DNA from: an uncultured Pseudomonadota bacterium
GTDB taxonomy: Bacteria > Pseudomonadota > Gammaproteobacteria > Methylococcales > Methylomonadaceae
DNA: 47,921 nucleotides
NCBI GenBank assembly: GCA_903876445.1
Contig: CAIQZX010000007.1
Span: 1 to 47,921, forward strand
Direction of reading: 5' to 3'
Position 1 is the stretch's first letter; each line of letters opens with the position of its first letter. Positions 5,082 to 30,084 of this stretch are shown here, one piece after another. Below the pieces are notes generated by a model. That model was not told where the DNA came from. It was given only the letters and a program-made list of their open reading frames with translations, and searched no databases. The position numbers and the translations under genes were made by a program.

Positions 5082-5774
5082 TTATTGCGTAACCTCATTT
5101 CTAAATAATCGACAACCGCGACTAGGTCCCATTACTACAAGAACATCGCCGGCATTTAATTCATGATCTGACTCACCATTCGTAAAATGTAATTGATCGC
5201 CTAACTCCCGATCAACCACGCCAATTAAAATCAGATTATATTTTTCATTTCGTAAATTTAACTGACTAACCATAACGCCTTCTAAATATGAATCAGGGGG
5301 AATCTCAATTTGAGCCATATTTAAATCATGTCGCCCGAAAACAGTATGATCTAAAATGTTACTAATGTCTGGTTTTGTAAGCATCTCGTGTACTTTTCGC
5401 CCACAAATTTCATACGGATCGATAATTTTATTTGCCCCTGCTGCAATCAATTTTTCTTCGGATTCAGAATCATCCACAATGGCAATAATCGTCAGGTTTT
5501 TATCTAAAGACCTTGCTGAAATTGTCAAAAATACATTATCAGAATCTTTCGGATAAAAACAAAAAATAATATCAATCGATGAGCCGATTCCAATTGAAAT
5601 TAAATCATCGTCATTACGAAAATCGATTATTCGCACGTCGAAACCGCTTTCAGACACTAACGTCGCTTCGGTTTCATTTCCGGCAATAAACAAAATGTTG
5701 CAATCGTCTTTAGGTAATCGATTCATCGACTCTAATGACATTACGCTATAACCAAAAACGGCTATTTTCTTCAT
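5082..5774 (-). CDS. RCK-domain (TrkA-N + TrkA-C) protein
   Basis: A 230-residue cytoplasmic protein with a Rossmann-like RCK_N/TrkA_N domain (about residues 1-140) and a TrkA_C domain (about 145-228). Features include the alternating hydrophobic strands, a strand-4 segment ending in AIVDDSE, then AAGANKIIDPYEI, which is typical of K+-channel RCK domains, and the VVMGP strand near the end. In this family the domain binds nucleotide or ion and gates a K+ channel or transporter. No membrane segment is present and no channel gene is adjacent. The usual glycine-rich GxGxxG loop is replaced by FGYSVMS, so NAD(H) or ATP binding may be altered. The start overlaps the stop of the upstream 689-aa gene by four bases, so it belongs to that transcript. 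TrkA-like function is inferred from fold only. Confidence 0.75.
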   Translation of the reverse strand: MKKIAVFGYSVMSLESMNRLPKDDCNILFIAGNETEATLVSESGFDVRIIDFRNDDDLISIGIGSSIDIIFCFYPKDSDNVFLTISARSLDKNLTIIAIVDDSESEEKLIAAGANKIIDPYEICGRKVHEMLTKPDISNILDHTVFGRHDLNMAQIEIPPDSYLEGVMVSQLNLRNEKYNLILIGVVDRELGDQLHFTNGESDHELNAGDVLVVMGPSRGCRLFRNEVTQ

Positions 5775-7840
5775 TTAAAAAAGGGTTTAATTTTTGTCGG
5801 CGTTAGTGTTTTACAATCCACACCAAAACAAGGTTTTATCGATTCATTCTCAACTACTTGCGCTGATGAAATACGTTTAATTTCATATTGCGATTTATCG
5901 ATTAGACAAGTCGTATCGTTATTTTCACAAACCGATTTCATCACAACATAATAGGTTGGTGAATCTTTCGTTAACGATATTAAATACGCGCCTGTGTCGC
6001 CGATTTTTCCAATTCCGCAGGAACTTCCGTTAATCAAGGTGTTGGATTTTAATGTTTTTTCGCTGTCATAAATCAACATTTTCCAATCATTTTGATAGCG
6101 GACGGAATTTAAACAGCCAAAGGTTAAATTAGCATCTGCTGTACCTGTATCGACTTGATAAACCTGAACATCTGTTAACGAGCTGATTTGTCCTGTTTGC
6201 ATCATGCCAAGATTTTTCTTTATTGTGAGCCAACTCGAATCAAAACTTTCTGCTTTCTTGGTGGCTGAAATTTCTGTATTTTTTGGAACAGCCGAACCGC
6301 TGACACGATTTAATCGATTACTGTAAGTTTTATCACCGACATTTGGTTTGTCGTTATCAACGTAAAATGCGTCTTGGCCTTCGCAATGAAAATCGCCAAT
6401 ATCCACTTTAATTGGAATAACGACTGAATTAGTTGAAGGTATTTCCGTTGGATTTAAATTTTCTAAATCTAATTTCACACCCGACAATGTAATTTTACTT
6501 TCAACTTCTGGTTTATTGCTACTTATACACTCACTTAATGTTGCTGTTGCGCTGTCTTTTGCAATAAATGGCGTATCAATAATTTCAGCATTTTCGATAA
6601 TGCTTCCCAACATAATTTCAGAAGGTGAAAATGATTGCGGGGTTAAAACTTGGCAAGCCATTGTGCCGATTTGGATTTTTATCGGTATTTTCGTTTTAAA
6701 TGTGGCTCGCAAATCCGCGTTTTCAACTTTTACCAAAATTGTTGAATTACTATTCAAACCGCATCTTGCGAGTTTAAAACTTGTCGCTGTAGCGGTGATA
6801 TTTTTTGTCGCGGTAAGTAAACTTCCGGTATAAATTTTCGTAACATCACGCACGATATTGTATTGCGAAGTTTCAACCGTACAATTCTTTTTCGATTCCA
6901 AATCACAGATGGATTGCACCGATACAAAATAACGAGGTGAATCTTTTGGTAATGTAAACTTAAAACCGCCTTTATCATCTACTAATGTAGAACCACAGTC
7001 ACTACCGTTTATAAATCGAGGATAACCCGTAACCAAAACATTGTTGTCATCATAAACCGTTAATTTCCAATCATTCGTTTGACGCGCGGCGGCGGCTGTA
7101 CATGAAAAAAGTAACGGAACTTCACTTTTTCCATTTGTATTTTGTTCGGTATACGTTTCAACAGAGTAAATGTTTTTGTCTGTCATCGACAAAATCTTAC
7201 CCGTTTTGATTGAACCTAGTGGAATGGAATTTTTGAGTTCGTTTTCCGTTAGCGTGTTTGCATCCAACCTAATTTCCTTTGGAATTAAACCCAGTTTTAA
7301 TTTGTAATCTGAACGGTCGCATGGAATAGGAGCGGAAACAGAATTTGTGTCGTAATATCGCGTTAAATCTGGAAAACGTGAACAACCCGATTGAACGCTA
7401 ATGTAATAAGAACTACCAACATCATTTGCATCGTCATTTTGACCGATAGTCATTGAAAAATTCTTATCCGTACAATGTTTGGCTGATACGTCATATCCTT
7501 TTAGCTGTACATCTGGATTCGTCGAATCATGCTTCCAAAGACCGACATACCAACCGTATGAATTATTATCGCTTTGCGGACATGAAAATTGTAATTCTAC
7601 ATCAGCGATCGGGAAGGGTATTTTCGATTCGGGCGTTGGATTAAGCACCGAAAAAAAATCAACGTCATTGAAATCTGAAATTTGCCCTGTTCGACTGGTG
7701 TTTTCCTTTAACACTTTTGGATTTTTTTTGCTAATATCGTAGTACGGTGAGGTCAAAGGATAATCCGCATTTCCAACTGCCCAAACAAATTTAACAAAAA
7801 TTAACAAAATAAGAGCTGATAAAATTCTGTAACGCTTCAT
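5771..7840 (-). CDS. Exported Cys-rich repeat protein, smaller paralogue (PPC-like domains)
   Basis: Function unknown. The 689-residue protein starts with a signal peptide (MKRYRILSALILLIFVKF, probably cut near Ala21-Val22). It has three repeats resembling bacterial pre-peptidase C-terminal (PPC) beta-domains at about residues 45-185, 205-335 and 540-660. Each repeat shares a D-x-Y/F strand, a central cysteine after a beta-strand, an NDW-x-L-x-x-Y/F-D strand in two of the three, a second cysteine (GSxCG or similar) and a final S-x-C...C pair. Between repeats 2 and 3 lies a different beta-domain (about 340-500) with four cysteines and an IGDFHCE motif. The tail carries PCFGVDC. All 18 mature cysteines form pairable sets. 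One base separates it from the larger paralogue upstream. A surface or periplasmic structural or adhesive role is plausible but not shown. Confidence 0.7.
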   Translation of the reverse strand: MKRYRILSALILLIFVKFVWAVGNADYPLTSPYYDISKKNPKVLKENTSRTGQISDFNDVDFFSVLNPTPESKIPFPIADVELQFSCPQSDNNSYGWYVGLWKHDSTNPDVQLKGYDVSAKHCTDKNFSMTIGQNDDANDVGSSYYISVQSGCSRFPDLTRYYDTNSVSAPIPCDRSDYKLKLGLIPKEIRLDANTLTENELKNSIPLGSIKTGKILSMTDKNIYSVETYTEQNTNGKSEVPLLFSCTAAAARQTNDWKLTVYDDNNVLVTGYPRFINGSDCGSTLVDDKGGFKFTLPKDSPRYFVSVQSICDLESKKNCTVETSQYNIVRDVTKIYTGSLLTATKNITATATSFKLARCGLNSNSTILVKVENADLRATFKTKIPIKIQIGTMACQVLTPQSFSPSEIMLGSIIENAEIIDTPFIAKDSATATLSECISSNKPEVESKITLSGVKLDLENLNPTEIPSTNSVVIPIKVDIGDFHCEGQDAFYVDNDKPNVGDKTYSNRLNRVSGSAVPKNTEISATKKAESFDSSWLTIKKNLGMMQTGQISSLTDVQVYQVDTGTADANLTFGCLNSVRYQNDWKMLIYDSEKTLKSNTLINGSSCGIGKIGDTGAYLISLTKDSPTYYVVMKSVCENNDTTCLIDKSQYEIKRISSAQVVENESIKPCFGVDCKTLTPTKIKPFFK

Positions 7841-7841
7841 T

Positions 7842-10800
7842 TTATTTCGCGCTAAATACAGGGAAATCGATTTCTTTCACGACATCGCAATCGGCATGAA
7901 AACATGGTGCAGGTGTTGCCGTTGTATTTGATAAATCGGAAATAAGACGTTTAATTTCGTAATTTGATTTATCGACCACACAGGTTTTATCCAACACGTC
8001 ACACGCCGATGTAATGACGATATATGAACGAGTCGAATTAGTAGGCAATGAAAAACCGAACACGCCACTATCTCCAACTTTACCAGTTCCACAGTCACTG
8101 CCGTTAATTATGTGCGAATCAACAAATTTTTTTGAATTATCATAAATCGATAATATCCAATCGTTAGCAAAACGGGTTGATGAAGGACAACTAAACGTGA
8201 AATTCACCGCTGCTTTTGAACCGGTATCAACATAATAAGCCTGAACATCTGTTGCCGTTTTAAGTTGATTTGTCTGAGATGCGCCAATGTTTTTAGACGC
8301 AGATAACGTTGCAAGAATCGGATCAATAACTGGCGCGACAAATGGCGCGACAAATGGCAAAATTTCGGGAAAATTACTATACGTTATTGTGCCTGTTTTT
8401 GTGTTGTTGATCGTAAATACATCTTTCGTTTCACAATGAAAATCACCGATATTAACTTTAATTGGAATCACAACTTCATTTGCAGAATGATCAGAATTTA
8501 AACTTTCTAAATCTAATTTTGAACCTGTTATCGTTACTTTCGATTTAGCGGTTCCACAATCACCAAGCGTTATTTTTACGCTATCTTTTGCTATTGAAGT
8601 GGTATCGCTAATTTCAGAAGAATCCGCAACTGACCCAATAATTGCATTTTTTGTAGATAATTCTGGCGTTAAAATTCGACACGCCGTACTACCAATTTGC
8701 ACGTTAATCGGTAATTTTGAAAGTTTTGCCGCTTCAGCCAAATCTACATTTTCAGCTTGGACTGAAATCACGGCATTATTATTCAAACCACAGTTGGTTA
8801 ATTTTAGATTTGCTGTCGTGGCATCAATTTTTTTAGTGGCTAATTTTCCAGAATAAACTTTGTTTACGTCACGCAAAATACTGTATTCAGATGTATCTAC
8901 AACACAATCTTTTTTGGTCGATGAGACACACGCTGATTCCACTGACAAATAAAAACGCGGTGAGCCTTTTGGTAATTTAAAACTGTAACCGCCTTTATCA
9001 CCAATAAAACTTGAACCACAAGTGCTACCATTGATAATTGTTGAATTAACTAAACCATTCGCATCATTGAAAATGCTTAATTTCCAATCATTCGTTTGAC
9101 GTGCCGCCATCGCCGAACAAGCAAAAACTAATGGAACATCCGCTGTAACATCGGTTTCGACAACGTAAATATCATTGTCCGTTAACGAACTGATTTGTCC
9201 CGAGCTTTCTAAACCTAAATTCTTTTGGGGTTGCGATGAAATATCCTCAATCCTTTTCATTTCGTTATCTGGATTATCTTTAATTGTATAAATACCTGCG
9301 TTGTAATTATTTTTACACGCTAAATCAAAACGTTTACTGAAATTTTCAGCGGTGTTTGTAGCAATCGCATTATCACTGACAGTTTTATTTAAAAATATAA
9401 CTGCGTCATCGACCGCTTTTAACGCTTCAGTTAATTTATCGCCGGCTAATTTATCCTCTGATTTTGCATTATCAACATCTCGTTGATATTTATCTGTAGT
9501 TAATTTTTCTTTATCTGCGGCTTGTTTTGTAGTGATTGCAGCATCTCTAATTGCTTTAGCCGCATTTAAGGCAATTTCTGATTTTGAATCAACAACTTCA
9601 GCATCGATTTTATCCGCTGCGGCTTTATCTGCGGCACTTTGAGCATCAGAATAGGTTTTGCTTGCCGCATCTTTTTCGGTTTGAGCGGTTTTTTGTGCTG
9701 TCTGCGCGACATCTAATTTTGCTTGTGCATCCGCTTTTTTATCAGCAGTCGCTTTATCAACAACATTGTGTGCCGTTGTTAAATCTATCACGGCATTTGT
9801 TAAATTTTCTGTCGCCGTATCTAGCTTATTTTTTGCGGTTGTCGCCGCTTTATCCGCTGTCGTTTTTTCTTTTGTTGCGAGTCGTAAATTATCTGCCGCA
9901 TCTTTTCTTGCGGTCGATGCGGTGGAAAAATCCGCCTCTGCATTCGTCAATGTTTTAGCTGCATTTGTTACGGCTAACTCTTTTTCTGCAATTTCACTTA
10001 TTTTTGATTTGTAAGTGGTGTCGCTCACTAAAAATTGCCCATAAGTGTAAATCGAATAACGCATTGCAAAACCGGCAATGCTAATTGCTTTAGATGTCGA
10101 AAGTGCAGCGGTGATATTTGTCGCTGGCGTTAAAGTTGATGAAGCTGAATTTACAACATCATTCGTTAATGCAAGCGCGTCCGAAAGTTTTTGAATGTTC
10201 GCATTTGAGTTAATCACAGCAAAACTGGCAGCACTTAATGATTCGTTTGCTTTATCGATGGAGGTTTGCGCGTTAAGAATTTCTGTTTTCGCAATATCGA
10301 TTTCTTTTTGTGTCGTGAGCGCAGCAGTGATGAATTTATTTACACTAACAATCGTTTTTGTGGGATCTTTCGGATCCGTAATGGTGTTATAAATCGGGGC
10401 TTGGCAATCGGATACAACCGAAATATAGTAATTAGGACTATCTAAACTTGGAAATCTGAAACTGAAAGGTTGTTGAGATTTTTCGTCAATCATGCAATCA
10501 GACGGTGAAACGGGATACGTTTCTTGTAATTCGCCATTTGCATCGTGAATACCTAAAAACCAACCTGTTGTAGCGGAAACACGGCTGTTACAAGTAAATG
10601 AAAGCACAATTTCTTCGCGTCTAACTTCAGTGCCAGCCTTGTTTAAAGGATTTAATTTCTCATCCGCTGCACTATACTTTACGCATTGTTTTTTATTATC
10701 TTTGAGGCAAGAATCAATTGAGAAGAAATCGACATCACTAGCGCGATTGAGTTTTCCGACATTTTCTGTGCTGAGTTTATTAGCCAGTTTAGAATCGTTA

Positions 10801-10880
10801 TTTGATTCGACTTCAATTGCCAAAGCGGGTTTCGCTAAAATCAGCAAAATAGCTGCTGACAATATCTTTTTATCGTCCAT
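7842..10880 (-). CDS. Exported Cys-rich protein with long coiled coil, larger paralogue
   Basis: Function unknown. The 1012-residue protein is a paralogue of the 689-aa neighbour, with the same order: signal peptide (cut near Ala21), PPC-like domain 1, PPC-like domain 2 (about 555-670), four-cysteine beta-domain (about 680-830, ending in IGDFHCE), PPC-like domain 3 (about 865-980) and a PCFHADC tail. The difference is an Ala/Lys/Asp/Thr-rich heptad region, about residues 190-515, with almost no aromatic or proline residues, predicted to be coiled coil. It lies between Cys159 and Cys522, the residues equivalent to the closely spaced final cysteine pair of the other domains. A short hydrophobic stretch near 265-285 could be the hairpin turn or a membrane contact. 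The 20 mature cysteines are an even number. It is the first gene of the cluster with dsbB and priA. Confidence 0.72.
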   Translation of the reverse strand: MDDKKILSAAILLILAKPALAIEVESNNDSKLANKLSTENVGKLNRASDVDFFSIDSCLKDNKKQCVKYSAADEKLNPLNKAGTEVRREEIVLSFTCNSRVSATTGWFLGIHDANGELQETYPVSPSDCMIDEKSQQPFSFRFPSLDSPNYYISVVSDCQAPIYNTITDPKDPTKTIVSVNKFITAALTTQKEIDIAKTEILNAQTSIDKANESLSAASFAVINSNANIQKLSDALALTNDVVNSASSTLTPATNITAALSTSKAISIAGFAMRYSIYTYGQFLVSDTTYKSKISEIAEKELAVTNAAKTLTNAEADFSTASTARKDAADNLRLATKEKTTADKAATTAKNKLDTATENLTNAVIDLTTAHNVVDKATADKKADAQAKLDVAQTAQKTAQTEKDAASKTYSDAQSAADKAAADKIDAEVVDSKSEIALNAAKAIRDAAITTKQAADKEKLTTDKYQRDVDNAKSEDKLAGDKLTEALKAVDDAVIFLNKTVSDNAIATNTAENFSKRFDLACKNNYNAGIYTIKDNPDNEMKRIEDISSQPQKNLGLESSGQISSLTDNDIYVVETDVTADVPLVFACSAMAARQTNDWKLSIFNDANGLVNSTIINGSTCGSSFIGDKGGYSFKLPKGSPRFYLSVESACVSSTKKDCVVDTSEYSILRDVNKVYSGKLATKKIDATTANLKLTNCGLNNNAVISVQAENVDLAEAAKLSKLPINVQIGSTACRILTPELSTKNAIIGSVADSSEISDTTSIAKDSVKITLGDCGTAKSKVTITGSKLDLESLNSDHSANEVVIPIKVNIGDFHCETKDVFTINNTKTGTITYSNFPEILPFVAPFVAPVIDPILATLSASKNIGASQTNQLKTATDVQAYYVDTGSKAAVNFTFSCPSSTRFANDWILSIYDNSKKFVDSHIINGSDCGTGKVGDSGVFGFSLPTNSTRSYIVITSACDVLDKTCVVDKSNYEIKRLISDLSNTTATPAPCFHADCDVVKEIDFPVFSAK
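8331..8354 (-). repeat. Two perfect 12-bp tandem copies inside the larger paralogue
   Basis: TGGCGCGACAAA occurs twice head to tail at 8331-8342 and 8343-8354, followed by a partial third copy. On the coding strand it encodes a repeated PFVA unit in the linker between the four-cysteine domain and PPC-like domain 3. The 12-bp unit keeps frame, so copy number can change without breaking the protein. Confidence 0.85.
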
Positions 10881-13592: not shown

Positions 13593-15179
13593 TCATTTTT
13601 CAGTCACTAACATTCGACCTAACGTGCTATTTTTATCTATCTCGACCGGCGTTTTCGTTATCGATTCGCATAACGCGAGCAATGTTTTTGCATTTTGTAA
13701 TTGTGTTATTCGTTGTTTTTGGAATTCATCAATTACAGCACTAACTTCGTGATTTAAACTTGCTAAACTTTGCGAAACACCTTTATTTAAACCCCGTAAA
13801 GCACATTTTTCGAGTGATGGTTGGCATTTTTTTAAAATAAAAAATGGTATTAACCACGATAAAATACAGACTAATGTACTGTGAATCGCAAAATCTATAC
13901 TCAAATAATGTTCGTGCGTTTGATTGCTTTCGTAATAACCATTAAAAACTTGAAAACCCACCCAACTCATTGCAGTTAACGGAAATATAATTTCAGCAAC
14001 GGCGGCGAATTTTAAAAATGAACGTTGCACTAAATTTCCACGTTGCGCGAGAGCTTGACGAGTCTGAAGTTCAACTTGTGAATTAAACTGTTTTTGCGCT
14101 TTTTCTCGCAATTGTAAAAGTTGTATTTCTAACGGCACAATCGGTAAATTCAATGTTTGCGCGTCGATTACCATTGTATTTAGCGCATCATTAAAACGAT
14201 TTTGCGCCCAATCATCCCAAAGAAAATTTTTCCCCTCTTTATTTTCAAACGGCAAAAGTTGAGCAAAATTTTCTGCTAAAGGTTGAAATCGCCATTTAAA
14301 ACCTTGTTGTAATTGATGTTCAGTATGATTCCAATTTTTCAGCCAATGCCCGCGCAGTTTTTTTAACGCAATTTCATTTCCGAACTGTAATAAATAATCT
14401 TGCATTTGATTCTGTAAAGCACGAAAACGAATATGATGCCCGCGTTTTTCCAATTGCTCTATTGTTTTTTGGGTTGCAAGTGACGTTAATGTTTCGGATA
14501 AATCGTTAAATTCGTCATTCTCGATAGATGTTACGCAACTTGTTTTAAAAATAAGCGGCGCATTAAAGATAAGCTTTACTTGTTTTTCGAAATCATCGGC
14601 TTGTTCAATTTGCCCAATATCCCACTGATTCATAACAAATAACCAAGCGTGTGTTCCCGCCTCGGAAAGTAATAATTGCCATGCTTTTTCATCCCGATAA
14701 CGTTCCGGACTCACCACATAAATCAACACATCAATATGTGGCAAACAATTTAATACTAATTCTTTGTTGCGCTCATTTGTACTATCAAAATCCGGCATAT
14801 CAATCCAGATAACATTTTTCTGTACTTCATTATCATGACTTTCAACATGAATATCTGTTAAAGGAAAAGTTGGTAACGTCACGTCACGATGATGAAAAAG
14901 CGTCACTTCTTTTGAAGTTGGACGCGCTACGCCTGATTTTGCAATCGGTTTACCTGCTAATCGATTTAATAACGAACTTTTACCAACGCCGGTTCCGCCC
15001 ATAAAAGCAACGATTAACGGACGTGCGGAAATTAAATTTACCCAACCTTCCTCGAAAAATAGATTTTTTTCGCCTGCGGTAAAAATGGGAATGGGGGAAT
15101 TTTTTAACCAACCTAATTCGTGAGCTTGTTGCGCCCAATCTTCAATATGCTGTGATAATTCAGAGTAATCGTAAGCCAT
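13593..15179 (-). CDS. Dynamin-like GTPase, downstream member of a tandem pair
   Basis: A 528-residue large GTPase. The G1 loop GGTGVGKSS is at residues 61-69, followed by a switch threonine in RPTSKEVT, G3 as DMPDFDS (127-133) and G4 as NQWD (184-187). The C-terminal half is helical and holds two hydrophobic stretches (around FAAVAEIIFPLTAMSWVGF and LVCILSWLIPFFIL), a membrane-binding layout seen in bacterial dynamin-like proteins. Start ATG 15179 begins the sequence that looks conserved; an upstream ATG at 15236 lies deep inside the neighbouring gene. It overlaps the upstream GTPase by 20 bases, so the two products are probably made together. Exact function is unknown; membrane remodelling or division-related work is inferred from fold. 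Confidence 0.7.
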   Translation of the reverse strand: MAYDYSELSQHIEDWAQQAHELGWLKNSPIPIFTAGEKNLFFEEGWVNLISARPLIVAFMGGTGVGKSSLLNRLAGKPIAKSGVARPTSKEVTLFHHRDVTLPTFPLTDIHVESHDNEVQKNVIWIDMPDFDSTNERNKELVLNCLPHIDVLIYVVSPERYRDEKAWQLLLSEAGTHAWLFVMNQWDIGQIEQADDFEKQVKLIFNAPLIFKTSCVTSIENDEFNDLSETLTSLATQKTIEQLEKRGHHIRFRALQNQMQDYLLQFGNEIALKKLRGHWLKNWNHTEHQLQQGFKWRFQPLAENFAQLLPFENKEGKNFLWDDWAQNRFNDALNTMVIDAQTLNLPIVPLEIQLLQLREKAQKQFNSQVELQTRQALAQRGNLVQRSFLKFAAVAEIIFPLTAMSWVGFQVFNGYYESNQTHEHYLSIDFAIHSTLVCILSWLIPFFILKKCQPSLEKCALRGLNKGVSQSLASLNHEVSAVIDEFQKQRITQLQNAKTLLALCESITKTPVEIDKNSTLGRMLVTEK

Positions 15180-16863
15180 GTTGTTTTTCTGCCTTGTTGG
15201 CTTCAATAGCTGCAAATTGTTCAGATGAAATCGCAAAATGCGTTTCTGTTTTTATGTGTTTTGGTAAATCATACAAGCGTTGCCTAAGTTGTTCAAAAAT
15301 TTGTACTTTTACGGATTCGAGTTGTTTAATTTTCAAATCTTCCTCAACTTTTTTCATGTAACTACCAATTGCACTTTCTGTAAGTAAATTCGTCAACATT
15401 AACATCGCCGGTGCAATGACCAAATCAGATAAACCAATACCACCGGTATACAACGTCAAAGCAATCACAGCGGCATCGGTTGTAATACGAGTAGCGCGTA
15501 ACGCATTTAAAACAAGTGGCAATTCTTCTAACTTCGCATACAGTCCACGCGCCGCACTTTCGACATCTTGCTGGAAATTTTGATGATAATTTTCAGCAAC
15601 AACATGAAATTCTTTTAAAATTTCGTTACGATTTTGACGTAACTGCTCGTTTAATTCACGCCATAACAATAACATATTTTTATCTAATAACTGATGTTGA
15701 ATGTCAGTTAAAGCATGGTTAATCAATTGCGTTAAAACATTCATTTCATGGCTTGTTGCGGCTAAATGTTTTCGACTAAATAAACGCCTTAATTCTTTAA
15801 ATGGATAAAGTAAAATTGTGCGAGCCGTCATCATGATTTTTGCAACACTCGGAATTTCCAACAACAATAACAATCCAGCAATCGCTTGCTGAAAGGTTTC
15901 GTAGTGACGTGGATGATTTAAATAATTACGTTCATAATCATTCAATACTTGTTTAATCACCGAGTCAACTAATGTTTGCCACGCTTGATAAATTTCGTGT
16001 TCATCGCGCAAAGGTTGTGTCCATTCTTGCCAATGTGTTTGCAATAATTTTTGTTCACGTCGTTGATGTTTTTCGCGATGCACTTTTTTAGTTAATTCAA
16101 ATAAGACGTGCTGTTGTGAAATTGGAATTTCGGGCAATCTTGTTTGTTTATAAAAAAATGGTATGACTTCTGGAAAATTATCGCGCCGATAATCGCGCCA
16201 TTTTTCTTTAAGCGATTCTAAAATAATCGTTTCAGAATCTTCACTCAATTTATTCACACAAATCAACGTCGGTTGACGCAATGGTTCAATAAGTTTCAGT
16301 GTATTCCAAACCGTTTGATCGGCATATTTTTCTTTACTGACCGCTAAAATAATCACATCCGCTAACGCAATCGTTTTTAAAACTCCTTCGCGATAATCAC
16401 GAGAATCAATCGAATCAAAATCGGGCGTGTCCCAAAAAATAGATGTTGGTAAATGTTCAGATAAATTTTCAGTTAGCGTTAGCGTATAACAGCTGTAACT
16501 ATTTTTGTTTAATTTTTCGGGTTCAATTTGAATAAATGGAGCGAAATAGGCGGCTAAATTATTACCTATTTCTAATTCAACAGAATGGCAAAAACCTTGT
16601 GGATGAATTGTATAACCCGCTAATGGACTAACACCTGCACTTCGTGATTGCAGAAAAACATTCGTTAACGAACTTTTTCCCGCTTGCGTTGGACCAATAA
16701 TCGCTATTTGTAACGGCAGCACATTAAGAAATTTACCTTTTCGGAAAAAGGCCTCTGTAAGCGTTAATTGTTCAATAATTTGCTGATAATTTTTATTATT
16801 CGGCGAATTCGCCTTTAAAACCGCTTGATAACGCTCTCGAAGTAGCGTGATAAATGTCAGCAT
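15160..16863 (-). CDS. Dynamin-like GTPase, upstream member of a tandem pair
   Basis: A 567-residue GTPase with G1 GPTQAGKSS (57-65), G3 DTPDFDS (145-151) and G4 NKLS (204-207). The G4 Asp is replaced by Leu-Ser, so guanine selectivity may differ. Long helical segments follow, then a hydrophobic hairpin-like stretch (VIALTLYTGGIGLSDLVIAP and the next helix) before a charged C-terminal coil. It shares the rare D-x-PDFDS G3 form with its downstream partner, which suggests an old duplication. Paired bacterial dynamin-like proteins that form hetero-oligomers are known in other bacteria, so a two-component complex is plausible here. The first Met at 16863 is used; sequence resembling the family begins close to it. 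Confidence 0.7.
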   Translation of the reverse strand: MLTFITLLRERYQAVLKANSPNNKNYQQIIEQLTLTEAFFRKGKFLNVLPLQIAIIGPTQAGKSSLTNVFLQSRSAGVSPLAGYTIHPQGFCHSVELEIGNNLAAYFAPFIQIEPEKLNKNSYSCYTLTLTENLSEHLPTSIFWDTPDFDSIDSRDYREGVLKTIALADVIILAVSKEKYADQTVWNTLKLIEPLRQPTLICVNKLSEDSETIILESLKEKWRDYRRDNFPEVIPFFYKQTRLPEIPISQQHVLFELTKKVHREKHQRREQKLLQTHWQEWTQPLRDEHEIYQAWQTLVDSVIKQVLNDYERNYLNHPRHYETFQQAIAGLLLLLEIPSVAKIMMTARTILLYPFKELRRLFSRKHLAATSHEMNVLTQLINHALTDIQHQLLDKNMLLLWRELNEQLRQNRNEILKEFHVVAENYHQNFQQDVESAARGLYAKLEELPLVLNALRATRITTDAAVIALTLYTGGIGLSDLVIAPAMLMLTNLLTESAIGSYMKKVEEDLKIKQLESVKVQIFEQLRQRLYDLPKHIKTETHFAISSEQFAAIEANKAEKQHGLRLL

Positions 16864-16950: not shown

Positions 16951-18471
16951 TTATTCTAACGGTAAATTAGCCGTTTTTTCTTTATTAACCTTATTCAAAA
17001 GCGGCGCAAGCAACACAGCAAAAAAGAAAATAAACGAAATAATTTGAAATAAATTATTAAACGTCATCACTTCAGCTTCACGCCACGCTAAACTCGTCAA
17101 ACGCGCTAACTCGATTTGCGTTAAATGTTGTCCGATTTCATCCGTTGCACTAATCGATTCACGCAATCCAGCGTAATGCGATTTGTTTAATATCAGCATT
17201 AACGTATTCGCCACTGCCAATCCCATCGCACCACCTAAATTACGCATTAAATTATATAAACCACTCGCATTTTTCACTTCTTCAATTGGCAATAAACCTA
17301 ACGCTAACGTGTTAATCGGTAAAAAACACAACATCAATGCACTTCCGCGAATCGCTTGCGGCAAAAAGAATTCCCAATAACCCGATTCCGCTGTCAGATT
17401 TCCGTTTAACCATGAACCCAAACCAAACAAACTCATCCCTAAACAAAGCATTAAACGTAAATCGATTTTCTTTTCGAGAGGACCTGCAATAAATGCAGAT
17501 ACCAACTGAAACAGCCCGACAACCATTAAATAATAACCAATCTGTAAACTGTTTAAGCCCTTCACGCTTCCTAAATAAATCGGTGTTAAATAAATAATCG
17601 TATAAAGCCCAATACCTAAAACAAAACTAAATGCACACCCAATCGCAAAGTTACGATTTCTAAACGCATACAAATCAATAATGGCGTGCGGATTCGTCAA
17701 CTCCCACCAAAACATCGCCGTGCCACTTATTGTCGCCACAACACTTAACATTAAAATTAAATCATCTTCAAACCACTGATCGCGTGCGCCTTCTTCGAGA
17801 ACATATTGCAAACTGCCTAAAAAAATTGCAATCAATGCAATGCCGATAAAATCAATTTTTTTGAGTAAATCCCAATTTGGTTTATCAATGTCTAAAAACG
17901 TAAACACCATAAAACAAACGATAAAACCTGGAATGATGTTGATTAAAAATAATAATTGCCAACTATAGGCATCGGTTAAATAGCCACCCAAAACAGGACC
18001 AATTGTTGGAGCCATCGTGACAATTAAACCCAAAACAATACTCATCGTCGGTTGTAATCGGGGCGGAAACAAAATGAAAATAATCGTAAATGTCATCGGA
18101 ATCATCGCGCCACCGAAAAAACCTTGAATGCAACGAAATACAATCATCGACGGCAAATTCCACGCAAACGCACACGCTAAACTCGACAACGTAAATCCGC
18201 CCGCTGACAAAACATACAAATAGCGCGTGGAAAAAACACGCCCAAGCCAACCCGATAACGGAATAATGATAACTTCGGCGATTAAATACGATGTTTGTAC
18301 CCACGCAATTTCATCTTGCGTTGCGGATAAACCTGCTTGAATTTCTTGCAATGAACTGGCGACAATTTGAATGTCTAACACCGCCATAAATACGCCAATC
18401 GCCATACTGAAAAAGCCAATCCATTCGCCTGTCGTTAAAATGCGTTCGCCTCTTTCATTAACAGCGGTCAT
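16951..18471 (-). CDS. emrB: DHA2-family MFS multidrug exporter (EmrB-like)
   Basis: A 506-residue inner-membrane drug:H+ antiporter of the 14-helix DHA2 group. Motifs include the helix-1 sequence FMAVLDIQIVASSLQEI, the helix-2/3 loop GWLGRVFSTRYLY and the antiporter motif C-like GPVLGGYLTDAYSWQLLFLINIIPG at the end of helix 5. It exports hydrophobic compounds together with an EmrA adaptor and a TolC channel, both encoded next door. The start codon overlaps the stop of the EmrA-like gene (ATGA), so translation is coupled. It is not followed by a clear terminator in the 87 bases before the GTPase genes. Confidence 0.9.
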   Translation of the reverse strand: MTAVNERGERILTTGEWIGFFSMAIGVFMAVLDIQIVASSLQEIQAGLSATQDEIAWVQTSYLIAEVIIIPLSGWLGRVFSTRYLYVLSAGGFTLSSLACAFAWNLPSMIVFRCIQGFFGGAMIPMTFTIIFILFPPRLQPTMSIVLGLIVTMAPTIGPVLGGYLTDAYSWQLLFLINIIPGFIVCFMVFTFLDIDKPNWDLLKKIDFIGIALIAIFLGSLQYVLEEGARDQWFEDDLILMLSVVATISGTAMFWWELTNPHAIIDLYAFRNRNFAIGCAFSFVLGIGLYTIIYLTPIYLGSVKGLNSLQIGYYLMVVGLFQLVSAFIAGPLEKKIDLRLMLCLGMSLFGLGSWLNGNLTAESGYWEFFLPQAIRGSALMLCFLPINTLALGLLPIEEVKNASGLYNLMRNLGGAMGLAVANTLMLILNKSHYAGLRESISATDEIGQHLTQIELARLTSLAWREAEVMTFNNLFQIISFIFFFAVLLAPLLNKVNKEKTANLPLE

Positions 18472-19490
18472 AGCGGTTTCACTTGCACTTTCACAGTTGT
18501 AGATAAACCTGATTTGAGCAACGCCGTATTTTCATTGGTATCAAAAACTATTTTCACAGGTACGCGACGCACAATTTTAGTGAAATTCCCCGTCGCATTT
18601 TCGGCTGGCAAAAGACTAAATTCTGAACCACTTGCAGGTGAAAAACTTTCGACTTTTCCTGTGAAATGGATATTTGGATAGGCATCAATATGAATTTTAA
18701 CGGGTTGCCCAATTTTCATATTTTCGATTTGTGTTTCTTTGAAATTGGCTTCTGCCCAAATTTTTTGGGTTTCAAGCAAATACGCTAAATTTGTTCCTGC
18801 TTGCACAAATGCCCCAAGTTGCACCCCACGATGCCCAATTACGCCATCAAACGGCGCACGAATTTTGGTATTTTCTAAATCAATTTTCGCCAACGCGACT
18901 TGCGCTTGTGCTTGTTTTACACGCGCTTGAGCCTGTTCAATTTCATGTTCAAAACTGGAAATTTGTTTATGTTGCGCCGCCACGGTCGATTTTGAACCCT
19001 GTAATTGCGCCGTCGTTTCTCTGGATTGCGAAAGCATTTTATCGAGCATTTGCGCTGGAGCTGCGCCACTTTCAACTAAGTGCATAAATCGCTGCAAATC
19101 TTTCTCAACATTATGTTGCCTCGCTTCAACGGCTGAAACATCGGCATTTGCCGTAGCAACATGAGCGTGTTGCGTATTTTTTGCCGCTTGCACACGCGCA
19201 ATATCTGCTTGTGCTTCAATCACTTTTGCCTGTGCTAAATCGAGTTTAGCTTGATAATCGCGGTCATCAATCACAGCAACAATTTCACCTTGTTTTACAC
19301 TTTGATTATCATCAATTCGTAAATCGGTAATGTAACCCGCTACTTTTGGTGTAATCAAAACGCTGTTAGTTTTTAAATAGGCGTTATCCGTGCTTTCGTA
19401 ATGTTGGCGTTCTTCAAACCATGAAAAACCCGCCCAACCTGCGTAAGCCAGTGCTGAAATTAAAAAAGAAAATGTAATAAGACGCTTCAT
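18468..19490 (-). CDS. emrA: Membrane-fusion protein (EmrA/HlyD family)
   Basis: A 340-residue periplasmic adaptor anchored by one N-terminal helix (residues about 4-20). A beta-barrel/lipoyl segment with DNAYLKTNSVLITPKVAGYI is followed by a long coiled-coil hairpin (about 80-200), the second lipoyl half (NTKIRAPFDGVIGHRGVQLG) and a C-terminal beta-barrel. It bridges the EmrB pump to an outer-membrane channel. It is transcribed divergently from the TolC-type gene, so all three parts of the exporter lie together with a shared control region at about 19491-19566. Confidence 0.9.
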   Translation of the reverse strand: MKRLITFSFLISALAYAGWAGFSWFEERQHYESTDNAYLKTNSVLITPKVAGYITDLRIDDNQSVKQGEIVAVIDDRDYQAKLDLAQAKVIEAQADIARVQAAKNTQHAHVATANADVSAVEARQHNVEKDLQRFMHLVESGAAPAQMLDKMLSQSRETTAQLQGSKSTVAAQHKQISSFEHEIEQAQARVKQAQAQVALAKIDLENTKIRAPFDGVIGHRGVQLGAFVQAGTNLAYLLETQKIWAEANFKETQIENMKIGQPVKIHIDAYPNIHFTGKVESFSPASGSEFSLLPAENATGNFTKIVRRVPVKIVFDTNENTALLKSGLSTTVKVQVKPL

Positions 19491-26829: not shown

Positions 26830-29800
26830 ATGATAGAAACCACCTTTGAACAATTACTACTCATCCTTAATTTCACCCAAAAGGCAAAAAAATTTAGCAA
26901 AACCTTTCCAAATGGCGCGATTTTAGCGGCTGATTTTGATAAACAAGAACTAATTTATCCCAAATCGCAAGGCTTAATCGTCCACGATGCGACCACCAGC
27001 AACTTTTCAGCCGCTGAAAATTTCGTGGTATTTGAATGTGTGCATCGTTTGCTTGAGAAAGGTTACGCACCGGAATCGATTGAACTTGAGCCTAAATGGA
27101 AAGTCGGACACGGGGCAAGCGGTGGCAAAGCTGATATTTTAGTCAAAGATAGACAAGGCGATTCTTTGCTGATTATCGAATGCAAAACCGCAGTCAAAGA
27201 ATTCAACAAAGCATGGCAAGACACGTTAGAAAATGGCGGACAGTTATTCGGTTACGCAGCAAATGAAGCTCCTGAATTTTTATGTTTGTATGCGTCAGAT
27301 TTTGTTAATGAAGGCGTTAAACACAATTACTATTTAATCAGTCTAAAAGACAGCGACGATTATTTAGCCAAAAACTCCAATACCGAATCCGCTCGTTTTA
27401 GCAACGCCCGAACTCGTGAACAATTGTTTGAAGTTTGGAAAAATAGCTACGATCAAGATGCTATGACTAAAGGCATTTTTGAGCATAGCGTTCAAGCCTA
27501 CATTTTGGGTAAGCAAAAAGTCTATCTCGAAGATTTACAAACGTTAAGCGGTGAAGATATTCAACCCAAATATCACGAATTCGCCACAATCATGCGCCAA
27601 CACAACATTTCAGGGCGTGAAAATGCGTTTGATAAATTAGTAAATTTATTTTTGTGTAAAATTTTGGATGAATTCAATAATGAAAATATCGAAGTCGAAA
27701 AACAAGATTTAAAATTTTATTGGGGCGGTTACGCGCAAGATTCGTATTTCAATTTGATTGACCGTTTGCAAGAGCTTTATCAAAAAGGCATGGATAAGTT
27801 TTTAGATGAACCTGTGACGTATGTTGATAATACGGCGGTCGATAATGCGTTTCGTTATTTTCAAAATAAACCCGATGCGACACGCGACACGGTCAAAGAA
27901 TTATTTAAACAACTCAAGTATTTTACCAACAGTGATTTTGCGTTTATCGATGTGCATAACGAAACCCTGTTTTATCAAAATTCGACCGTTTTGTTAAAAA
28001 TCGTCAAGATGTTGCAAGACATTAAATTGTTGCAAAAAGACAGTAATAATCAATTTTTAGGCGATTTATTTGAAGGCTTTTTAGATAACGGCGTAAAACA
28101 ATCCGAAGGGCAATTTTTTACTCCGATGCCGATTTGTCGCTTCATTATGCAGTCGTTGCCACTCAAAACACTTTTCACAAATAGCGAAGAACCACAGAAA
28201 GCGATTGATTATGCGTGTGGTGCGGGGCATTTTTTAAACGAACTCGCCATGCAAATCACGCCCTTTATTCACGATAAAGCCGCGCATTATTCCCAATTTT
28301 ACGGCATTGAAAAAGAATATCGCTTGTCAAAAGTCGCTAAAGTTTCGGCGTTTATGTACGGTCAAAATGAAATTAACATCATTTATGGCGATGCCTTAGC
28401 CTCACACGCAAAAATCGAAAATGACAGTTTTTCATTATTAGTCGCAAATCCACCGTATAGCGTGAAAGGTTTTTTAGCGACTTTAGACAAAAAAGAACGT
28501 GCCAAATATGAATTATTCAAAACTATCAATGACAAAAGCATTGAATCCAACAATTCGATTGAAACTTTTTTTATTGAACGCGCAAAACAATTATTAAAAG
28601 TGGGTGGTGTGGCGGCAATTATTGTCCCGTCGTCAATTTTGTCCAACAGCGACAGCACTTACACCGCCACCCGTTCATTATTACTCGCGTATTTTGACAT
28701 CGTGGCGATTGTTGAATTTGGCTCTGGCACATTCGGCAAAACAGGCACAAATACCGTCACATTATTTTTACGTCGTAAGAAAAGAATGCCCGAAGTCGCG
28801 CATCATTACGCTTGCCGCGTGAAATGTTGGTTTGATTTTCAAGATTTAGAAAACAAATGTTACGAAGACGCGCATTTGATTCATAAATACTGCGAACACA
28901 TTGGCATTCCATTTGAGCAATACGAAACGCTTTTAAATGGCAAACCATCTGCGGATTTACTTGCCCATGAAATGTTTGTCGATTATCAAAAACAATTCGA
29001 CGGTTCGAGCGAAATTATCAATTTAAAAAAACAAAAATCGTTTTTGGCAAAAAGCCACGTTGAAAAAGAAGTCGAATTGAAAAAGCGTTTAATTGCTTAT
29101 TTAACGGAAATTGAAAAAGATAAATTACTGTATTTCGTATTGGCTTATGAAAACCCACAAAAAGTTCTCGTCATCAAAAGTCCGTCCGACAACAAAGAAC
29201 AAAAAGCGTTTTTAGGTTATGAATGGAGCGGTCGAAAAGGTGACGAAGGCATTAAATTAACTACCGATTCAAACGGCACGCATTTAACGCCACTTTATGA
29301 CGAAACCAACCGCGATAATCCCGAAAAAATTAACGCTTTAATCACGCAAAACTTTTTAGGCGAATTATCAGCGATTCCCGAAGTGTTACAGCCTTTCGCA
29401 TCGTTGGTGAATTTGGTTGATATGCTTGATTTTTCACGCAAAGATTTTGATAAAACGATTTCGTCGAACGTAAGAAAAGCAGAATTTGAAATCAAATCAA
29501 AATGGGAAATAAAAAGACTTTCCGATTTAATTCAAATTATTGGTGGCGGAACACCTGATACAAAAATTGCAGATTATTGGGGCGGTGATATTCCTTGGTT
29601 AAGTGTGGTTGATTTTAATGGCGATAGCCGATTTGTAAGTACGAGTGAAAAAACAATCACCGAATTAGGTTTAAAAAATAGCAGTACAAAATATCTTCAA
29701 AAAGGTGATTTAATTATTTCAGCTCGTGGAACAGTTGGAGCGTTAGCACAATTAGCTATTCCAATGACTTTTAACCAATCTTGTTATGGATTGAGAGCAA

Positions 29801-30084
29801 AAACAGAAATTATTGATGCGGGTTATTTGTTTTACGTTTTGAAACAAGAAATTCAACAATTCAAATCAAATGCTTACGGCACTACATTTGGTTCAATCAC
29901 AACAAAAACATTCGATATTATTAAAATCCCACTCCCACCTTTAGAAATTCAACAGCAAATCGTGAGTGAAATTGAGGAATTAGAAAAAAACAAAAGTGAG
30001 TTGTTGAAAGAAGGCATGACGATGAAAGATTTTGAAATCGCCATTAAAGAAGCGAAACAGACGGTTTTGAAGAATTATTTATAA
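26830..30084 (+). CDS. Single-chain restriction-modification-specificity enzyme (type IIG-like)
   Basis: A 1084-residue fusion of nuclease, methyltransferase and specificity parts. The N-terminus has a type I HsdR-N-like PD-(D/E)xK nuclease: GGKADILV with Asp102, then IIECK with Glu117 and Lys119. A helical linker leads to an N6-adenine methyltransferase with motif I DYACGAGHF (from 460) and motif IV NPPY (540-543), preceded by the GQFFTP segment typical of HsdM. From about residue 890 to the end is one HsdS-type target-recognition domain (IIGGGTPDTKIADYWGGDIPW, LISARGTVG, PLPPLEIQQQIV) with its coiled coil. There is no helicase motor, so ATP-driven type I cleavage is not expected. Only one recognition domain is present, so it probably binds a split site as a dimer. 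It is alone, between argH and a FAH gene. Confidence 0.85.
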   Translation: MIETTFEQLLLILNFTQKAKKFSKTFPNGAILAADFDKQELIYPKSQGLIVHDATTSNFSAAENFVVFECVHRLLEKGYAPESIELEPKWKVGHGASGGKADILVKDRQGDSLLIIECKTAVKEFNKAWQDTLENGGQLFGYAANEAPEFLCLYASDFVNEGVKHNYYLISLKDSDDYLAKNSNTESARFSNARTREQLFEVWKNSYDQDAMTKGIFEHSVQAYILGKQKVYLEDLQTLSGEDIQPKYHEFATIMRQHNISGRENAFDKLVNLFLCKILDEFNNENIEVEKQDLKFYWGGYAQDSYFNLIDRLQELYQKGMDKFLDEPVTYVDNTAVDNAFRYFQNKPDATRDTVKELFKQLKYFTNSDFAFIDVHNETLFYQNSTVLLKIVKMLQDIKLLQKDSNNQFLGDLFEGFLDNGVKQSEGQFFTPMPICRFIMQSLPLKTLFTNSEEPQKAIDYACGAGHFLNELAMQITPFIHDKAAHYSQFYGIEKEYRLSKVAKVSAFMYGQNEINIIYGDALASHAKIENDSFSLLVANPPYSVKGFLATLDKKERAKYELFKTINDKSIESNNSIETFFIERAKQLLKVGGVAAIIVPSSILSNSDSTYTATRSLLLAYFDIVAIVEFGSGTFGKTGTNTVTLFLRRKKRMPEVAHHYACRVKCWFDFQDLENKCYEDAHLIHKYCEHIGIPFEQYETLLNGKPSADLLAHEMFVDYQKQFDGSSEIINLKKQKSFLAKSHVEKEVELKKRLIAYLTEIEKDKLLYFVLAYENPQKVLVIKSPSDNKEQKAFLGYEWSGRKGDEGIKLTTDSNGTHLTPLYDETNRDNPEKINALITQNFLGELSAIPEVLQPFASLVNLVDMLDFSRKDFDKTISSNVRKAEFEIKSKWEIKRLSDLIQIIGGGTPDTKIADYWGGDIPWLSVVDFNGDSRFVSTSEKTITELGLKNSSTKYLQKGDLIISARGTVGALAQLAIPMTFNQSCYGLRAKTEIIDAGYLFYVLKQEIQQFKSNAYGTTFGSITTKTFDIIKIPLPPLEIQQQIVSEIEELEKNKSELLKEGMTMKDFEIAIKEAKQTVLKNYL

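Follow-up and report, generated by a model that had tools for sequence, protein, structure and literature searches.

A helical insert with a conserved base and length-variable arms between two conserved cysteines of a PPC-like domain in uncultured Methylococcales

The 47,921-nucleotide stretch of DNA under study (the window; contig CAIQZX010000007.1 of assembly GCA_903876445.1, from an uncultured member of the Methylomonadaceae) carries on its reverse strand a gene, A (7842..10880), whose product of 1012 amino acid residues (aa) is an exported protein, to judge from its features, with three domains resembling the bacterial pre-peptidase C-terminal (PPC) domain, one of which holds a long helical insert. 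The protein begins with what is by eye a signal peptide with an AxA-type end (residues 1-21, 10818..10880), and the N-termini of its homologues are similar. The part of PPC-like domain 1 that precedes the insert (residues 22-159, 10404..10817) terminates in Cys159 (codon 10404-10406). A linker (residues 160-190, 10311..10403) leads into the conserved base of the insert (10023..10310), with predicted helices at 191-217 and 225-248 and the start of a long helix at 253. The coiled-coil arms (residues 287-476, 9453..10022), weakly conserved and variable in length, have a predicted break at about 377-378 and return to the base at residues 477-521 (9318..9452), a conserved segment of nearly fixed length (44-46) in which the descending helix ends. 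Cys522 (9315..9317) and the final strand of domain 1 (residues 530-535, 9276..9293) follow, and then PPC-like domain 2 (residues 553-674, 8859..9224), a middle module with four cysteines (residues 675-832, 8385..8858), PPC-like domain 3 (residues 863-982, 7935..8294) and a C-terminal tail (7845..7934). One base downstream of A, and on the same strand, lies B (5771..7840), an insert-free paralogue of 689 aa. When the sequence was re-read, both open reading frames (ORFs) and every cysteine position were as the first-pass annotation had described them.

Within a PPC-like domain of four cysteines, Cys159 is the third (C3) and Cys522 the fourth (C4). As had been noted earlier, the last two cysteines are close together in the other domains, with spacings of 8 and 7 in domains 2 and 3 of A and of 21, 8 and 7 in domains 1, 2 and 3 of B; in domain 1 of A the spacing is indeed 363, but this leaves 362 and not 363 residues between the two. 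Alanine is the commonest of these (71/362), in keeping with the Ala-rich coiled coil first proposed, but residues 160-190 are a low-confidence linker and not coil. Two shorter helices also precede the long ones, and the insert is more than a bare hairpin. Its hydrophobic residues show a helical, heptad-type periodicity (z = 5.5 at period 3.5 against 60 shuffles); among the periods tested the peak falls at 3.5 or 3.4 in all eight complete copies of A, and it is weaker in three short ones (z 1.7 to 3.7 at 3.5).

The location of the insert is the same in every complete copy. A domain profile made from eight other domain copies, none of them a domain 1, matches domain 1 of A at 33.7 bits and ends at position 100 of 120, just past Cys159; the usual last strand (Y-x-I) follows Cys522. 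The Cys522 column of an unguided alignment contains cysteine in 47, 47, 54 and 54 of 55 rows under four MAFFT settings, and in 47/55 rows of the alignment used for folding. In 8/8 complete A proteins, that of the window included, the helical stretch runs from the cysteine that ends an 'SVVxDC' strand to the next cysteine, with C3-C4 spacings of 363, 333, 323, 395, 395, 216, 220 and 217. The insert is therefore bracketed by a homologous cysteine pair, and no complete copy has its coil outside that pair. An assembly artefact is ruled out by the presence of the insert in eight separate genome assemblies.

Comparison among homologues divides the insert into a conserved base and arms of variable length, a division that is new in this analysis. 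The anchors and segment borders were picked after the alignment and the model were known, and one homologue (A_G001, the A protein of genome G001) was left unanchored, so that arm lengths are compared in seven. Measured over aligned pairs against the window protein, identity is highest from Cys522 through the last strand (0.68) and in the linker (0.63), intermediate in the base helices (0.40 to 0.53) and lowest in the two arms (0.26 and 0.32). The base helices are nearly constant in length, the exceptions being extra residues after helix 1 in G015, G004, G012 and G001 (7 in the last) and a third helix that is longer by 3 to 5 residues in G002 and G001. The first anchor is 115-119 residues from the Cys159 equivalent in four homologues; it lies further off in G015 (134) and in G004 and G012 (213), which carry extra segments after helix 1. 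The arms between the two anchors measure 219, 189, 162, 156, 156, 75 and 75 residues; the second anchor precedes C4 by 26 or 27 residues in 7/7. Length thus varies chiefly in the arms and hardly at all at the cystine end. As the insert was defined as extending to the next cysteine, it lacks internal cysteines by construction; that this next cysteine aligns with C4 at a nearly constant distance from a conserved anchor is not a product of the definition. The position of the insert, its homology, its conservation and its pattern of lengths are thus matters of direct comparison.

For its shape we turned to AlphaFold2 models of monomers, model 1 being based on 9 alignment rows (mean predicted local distance difference test score, pLDDT, of 71) and model 2 on 55 rows (mean pLDDT 77). 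The arms are confident in model 1 (blocks of 79-92), in which the β-domain is poor; model 2 is confident in the β-domain, where blocks over fragment residues 11-140 have a pLDDT of 78-93 and those of the last strand 84 and 74. Both models place helices, in protein numbering, at 191-217, 225-245 or 225-248, 253-376 and 379 to 519 or 522, with a break at residues 377-378. The hairpin of long helices proposed in the first-pass annotation is hence predicted, and with it come structural matches: the long pair matches both arms of the SMC coiled coil 5xg2 with Z 12.6 for model 1 and 11.5 for model 2 (root-mean-square deviation, rmsd, 3.0 over 237 residues). Matches of model 2 to designed helical proteins (range about 169 to 480, Z up to 13.9) suggest that the first two helices may bundle with the roots of the long helices into a four-helix base, although such a range gives only its ends. 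A closed β-fold is predicted as well: model 2 has a strand after Cys522, and this strand lies over the last part of the PPC fold. The clamp that the two cysteines were proposed to form at the base of the hairpin would be uneven. On the descending side the helix reaches Cys522 or stops just short of it; on the ascending side no helix begins until 32 residues past Cys159, beyond a linker with a pLDDT of about 47-56 over most of its length.

The β-domain is a remote relative of bacterial PPC domains with a new insertion, and the likeness noticed earlier is supported by the Pfam score of a distant homologue, by profile-profile comparison and by the fold of the model. The homologue, from genome G093, scores 25.5 bits against the Pfam PPC model (PF04151), and 26 with its neighbors in frame, the cut-off being 25.9. 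When compared by hhalign with 30 PPC matches from the order, the own and distant domains together gave a probability of 91.6 (score 39.8), the distant domains alone 96.2 (score 52.0) and the own domains alone 36.5 (score 25.7); column-shuffled controls (30 per comparison) reached a maximum score of 12.9, or 11.9 for the own domains alone. These first two lines are not independent, because the distant set includes the G093 domain. In VIA-align comparisons model 2 matched the collagen-binding domain of ColH (3jqw) with Z 11.0 and 20% identity (106 of 117 residues, rmsd 2.5 Å) and three ColG entries, 5iku with Z 10.9 and 1nqd and 4hpk with Z 10.4 each. These four are the PPC structures listed for model 2, the comparison for model 1 having none among the best 50 matches listed; Foldseek on model 2 returned no β-domain match among the best 50 of 924. 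The alignments to PPC structures span model residues 3 or 4 to 516, and the insert occupies model residues 139-500; an alignment that reaches 516 therefore places the strand following Cys522 on the last part of the PPC domain. In clostridial collagenases the PPC domains bind collagen (PMC6168687). The domain of A shares with these (PF04151, ColG/ColH) the model fold, the profile similarity and, through G093 with its neighbors, the Pfam cut-off; it differs in being cystine-rich, in having one copy with a 362-residue helical insert, and in that A and B match neither PF04151 nor any peptidase family. Indeed, neither A nor B matched any Pfam family, even at E up to 1 (and PF04151 had no match in their own genome), NCBIfam gave none above cut-off, and sequence searches of the Protein Data Bank (PDB) no significant relative, in agreement with the earlier remark that no named family has this layout.

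The four cysteines can be followed across the genus. C1 and C2 are present in 55/55 aligned domains, C3 in 54/55 and C4 in 54/55, where it falls exactly in its column in 47 rows and is displaced by 2-3 columns in 7; the lone domain without C3, the third of A_G001, also lacks C4, and the two are thus present or absent together in 55/55. This alignment omits two of the 57 domains of the genus, domain 2 of A_G012, which has all four cysteines, and a contig-end fragment from G017. In the distant relatives (G161, G093, G060 and G086) 10/10 domains keep C1 and C2 and lack C3 and C4; Cys 547 and 554 of G093 lie after the last strand of its third domain. All 14 intact A and B proteins have an even number of cysteines. 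From the co-occurrence of C3 and C4 and their absence in distant domains, C1–C2 and C3–C4 bonds would fit the data, the second being a later gain. The same co-occurrence is evidence, and not proof, that Cys159 and Cys522 are bonded. Domain 1 has a second cysteine-bracketed variable loop, from Cys58 to Cys66 (10683-10709), in which the cysteines are 8 to 23 apart in 9/9 A copies, the G017 fragment included.

The best overall explanation, which we rate slightly above an even chance, is that A encodes an exported PPC-like protein in which a C3–C4 loop carries a base and a coiled-coil hairpin, closed by a disulfide and used as a spacer. The protein would consist of PPC-like β-sandwiches with two cystines each (C1–C2 and C3–C4). 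The C3–C4 loop, whose length varies in other copies too, would in domain 1 carry the conserved helical base, and two helices would continue from it and pair as an antiparallel coiled-coil hairpin whose length differs between copies. Bonding of Cys159 to Cys522 would make the whole insert a single covalent loop on the β-domain, and a tip or helix-bound partner might then be held about 13 to 15 nm beyond the base (90 to 100 residues at 0.15 nm each). The PPC-like domains could bind something polymeric, the hairpin setting the distance. Export is argued by the signal peptide and the many paired cysteines, and the role of spacer by a conserved base, variable arms and no conserved tip. A is most likely an exported spacer or display protein, acting probably at the cell surface, as the turnover of domains and the exchange between paralogues among close relatives (see below) would imply. 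A more specific proposal, which we put forward tentatively and at somewhat less than even confidence, is a disulfide-closed telescoping stalk: hairpin length would change between species with the base and the cystine untouched, in a surface protein that swaps domains with a tandem paralogue at one site.

A number of observations weigh against the explanation as a whole. The predicted template modeling scores (pTM) are only 0.47 and 0.44 for models 1 and 2, and the five models of the first job span a mean pLDDT of 71.3 to 52.5. The arms are less confident in model 2 (52-77 over fragment residues 301-440) than in model 1, and the linker on the ascending side is poorly predicted. Without the insert-free alignment rows the final strand is not predicted, its region having a pLDDT under 50, and so the closure of the domain in model 2 leans on the alignment. 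Z scores of 11-14 for a helical hairpin may reflect its shape only. As to the bond, the joint loss of C3 and C4 is one event and their joint gain is possibly one; the adjoining gene for DsbB, considered as specific support, was rejected because it is also present at sites that lack A and B.

The main rival retains the same architecture and makes the hairpin a periplasmic spacer or docking arm between the membranes, similar to that of efflux adaptors; we consider it unlikely, though a serious alternative. In such adaptors a coiled-coil α-hairpin of variable length is spliced into a loop of the lipoyl β-domain (PMC4446572). The hairpin of A likewise sits in a β-domain loop and varies in length as in adaptors of the AcrA/MacA/HlyD type, but its host domain is PPC-like and not lipoyl, and its insert is bracketed by cysteines and has extra base helices. 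A signal peptide, with neither membrane anchor nor lipobox seen by eye, and paired cysteines would both suit the periplasm. However, no Pfam family was found in A or B, and the lipoyl and HlyD barrel-sandwich profiles without a match in A (E up to 1) belong to a library that does detect an HlyD-type protein elsewhere in the window (18468-19490). The almost threefold range of arm lengths within one genus would also be odd for a part that bridges a fixed gap, and two relatives have an empty site.

It is improbable, in our estimation, that the insert is a tolerated loop expansion, an Ala/Thr/Lys/Asp-rich helix grown by slippage with no selected function. The arms do vary in length with 26% and 32% identity where aligned, and their region holds short diverged DNA repeats, of which families with two and three copies can be chance. 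The same loop reaches, by eye, nearly 40 residues in domain 1 of G093 and G060, and in G093 (L063 2932-4902) this stretch precedes the last strand and has no cysteines. But slippage alone would sit poorly with base helices that are 40-53% identical and, save for the extras listed above, near constant in length, and with a periodicity that is kept in the long copies. About equally improbable is a pairing of helices between molecules, as a parallel or domain-swapped coiled coil with no hairpin. Many long Ala-rich coils oligomerise, and our models are of monomers only; against this, both models break the helix at 377-378 and match two arms of the SMC hairpin. Least probable of all is that Cys159 and Cys522 share no bond and that each pairs elsewhere or stays reduced, as the 20 cysteines of the protein would permit, for C3 and C4 occur or are missing together in 55/55 domains and both are absent in 10/10 distant ones.

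If the model of an exported, disulfide-closed hairpin is right, A would provide a stiff natural rod, tunable in length and grafted into a small exported β-domain; across the species of one genus the rod would come in a series of sizes, from 75 to 219 residues as counted between fixed anchors. The length of the stalk could be tested against function, and the rod might serve as a scaffold for engineering. It would also be a variable and possibly surface-exposed system in uncultured Methylococcales that is unnamed in Pfam and NCBIfam. The search of open-licence literature in PubMed Central (PMC) found no paper on a coiled coil in a cysteine-paired loop of a PPC-like domain. A parallel in function may be enterococcal PrgA, in which a domain is displayed at the end of a stalk some 40 nm long (PMC10588982). 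The predicted hairpin of A superposes on the long helices of PrgA (6z9l) with Z 13.9 and 13.4 (rmsd 8.3 and 4.3), values that helical shapes reach without kinship; unlike in PrgA, no tip domain is seen in A, and the match is limited to helices. A PDB sequence search of A (E up to 1) found no relation to PrgA, only RipA and Bud6 at E 0.1 or weaker. The eukaryotic 6-Cys protein Pf41, for which the title of a paper names an intra-domain insertion (PMC4587554), offers a parallel only; 6-Cys domains are described as β-sandwiches with conserved disulfides (PMC7886318).

The family is narrowly distributed. Matches were found in 11 of 61 genomes near the source, all in one genus and representing 11 of its 18 genomes examined (the source included), in 15 of 311 genomes across the order, of which four lie beyond the genus, and in one of 369 genomes of the class, which is the source itself, where A and B are the only matches. 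A is complete in eight genomes (the source, G010, G015, G004, G012, G003, G002 and G001), and a ninth copy, in G017, runs off its contig inside the insert. G008 and G011 have only B; G004, G003 and G002 have only A. Intact proteins contain two to six PPC-like copies. In the window, B overlaps the next gene, for a TrkA-like protein, by four bases, and genes for DsbB and PriA follow. The flanks are the same as far as the contigs extend, with DnaX-YbaB-HIT upstream and TrkA-like-DsbB-PriA downstream, at 10 loci from 10 other genomes and on a second G017 contig. Seven genomes of the genus have neither A nor B, and the empty site was seen in two: 50 bases separate the matched ends of HIT and the TrkA-like gene in G009 (L069 3164-3215), and 70 bases separate HIT from DsbB in G005, with no TrkA-like match (L078 1862-1933). 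The A/B cassette is thus a presence/absence locus. In G007 HIT and the TrkA-like gene are on separate contigs, the TrkA-like gene at a contig end, and neither is beside A or B; in G006, G013, G014 and G016 the sole HIT match (75%) has different neighboring genes, and a search for the TrkA-like gene found none.

Two A proteins are, judging by their sequences, chimeras of A and B that arose by paralogue exchange or deletion. A_G004 (L033 3583-6708) is 93% identical to A_G012 over residues 1-876, but its C-terminal 162 residues resemble the end of B_G012 (94% identity, 158 aligned) far more than A_G012 (48% identity, 120 aligned). The end of A_G002 (L036 2867-6019) is similarly B-like, with 83% identity to B_G015 and 50% to A_G003. 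In G010 the B gene falls into two frames that overlap (L031 6902-8431 and 8391-9053), which points to either a pseudogene or an assembly error. Carriage of the family on known mobile elements was rejected: the 278-aa segment of domain 2 and the middle module had no match in 72,556 plasmid and 50,697 phage records (E 0.01), and alignment A3 had none in viral contigs.

The middle module (8385-8858), with no Pfam or PDB sequence match, has two similar halves and four cysteines; the distant relatives hold a stretch resembling one half, and no named family was found for it. The C-terminal tail of A has a CxxxxC motif that is common to 14/16 A and B C-termini, together with a P-x-F near the end (7845-7949 and 5774-5878 in the window); the tails of B_G011 and the G017 fragment lack CxxxxC and retain K-P-F-F, and these two were excluded from the tail alignment. 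A general C-terminal sorting tag was considered and rejected, since the clear matches to this alignment, in six genomes, are the A and B genes themselves, and the next has E 0.001 and an internal stop. The G011 tail was not found in this search because B_G011 was excluded from the alignment and lacks CxxxxC. Elsewhere in the window, a single polypeptide of 1084 aa (26830-30084) combines N6-methylase and type I specificity domains, and is a protein of the fused restriction-modification type; two overlapping ORFs of 547 and 567 aa (13593-16863) are, by eye, both P-loop GTPase-like.

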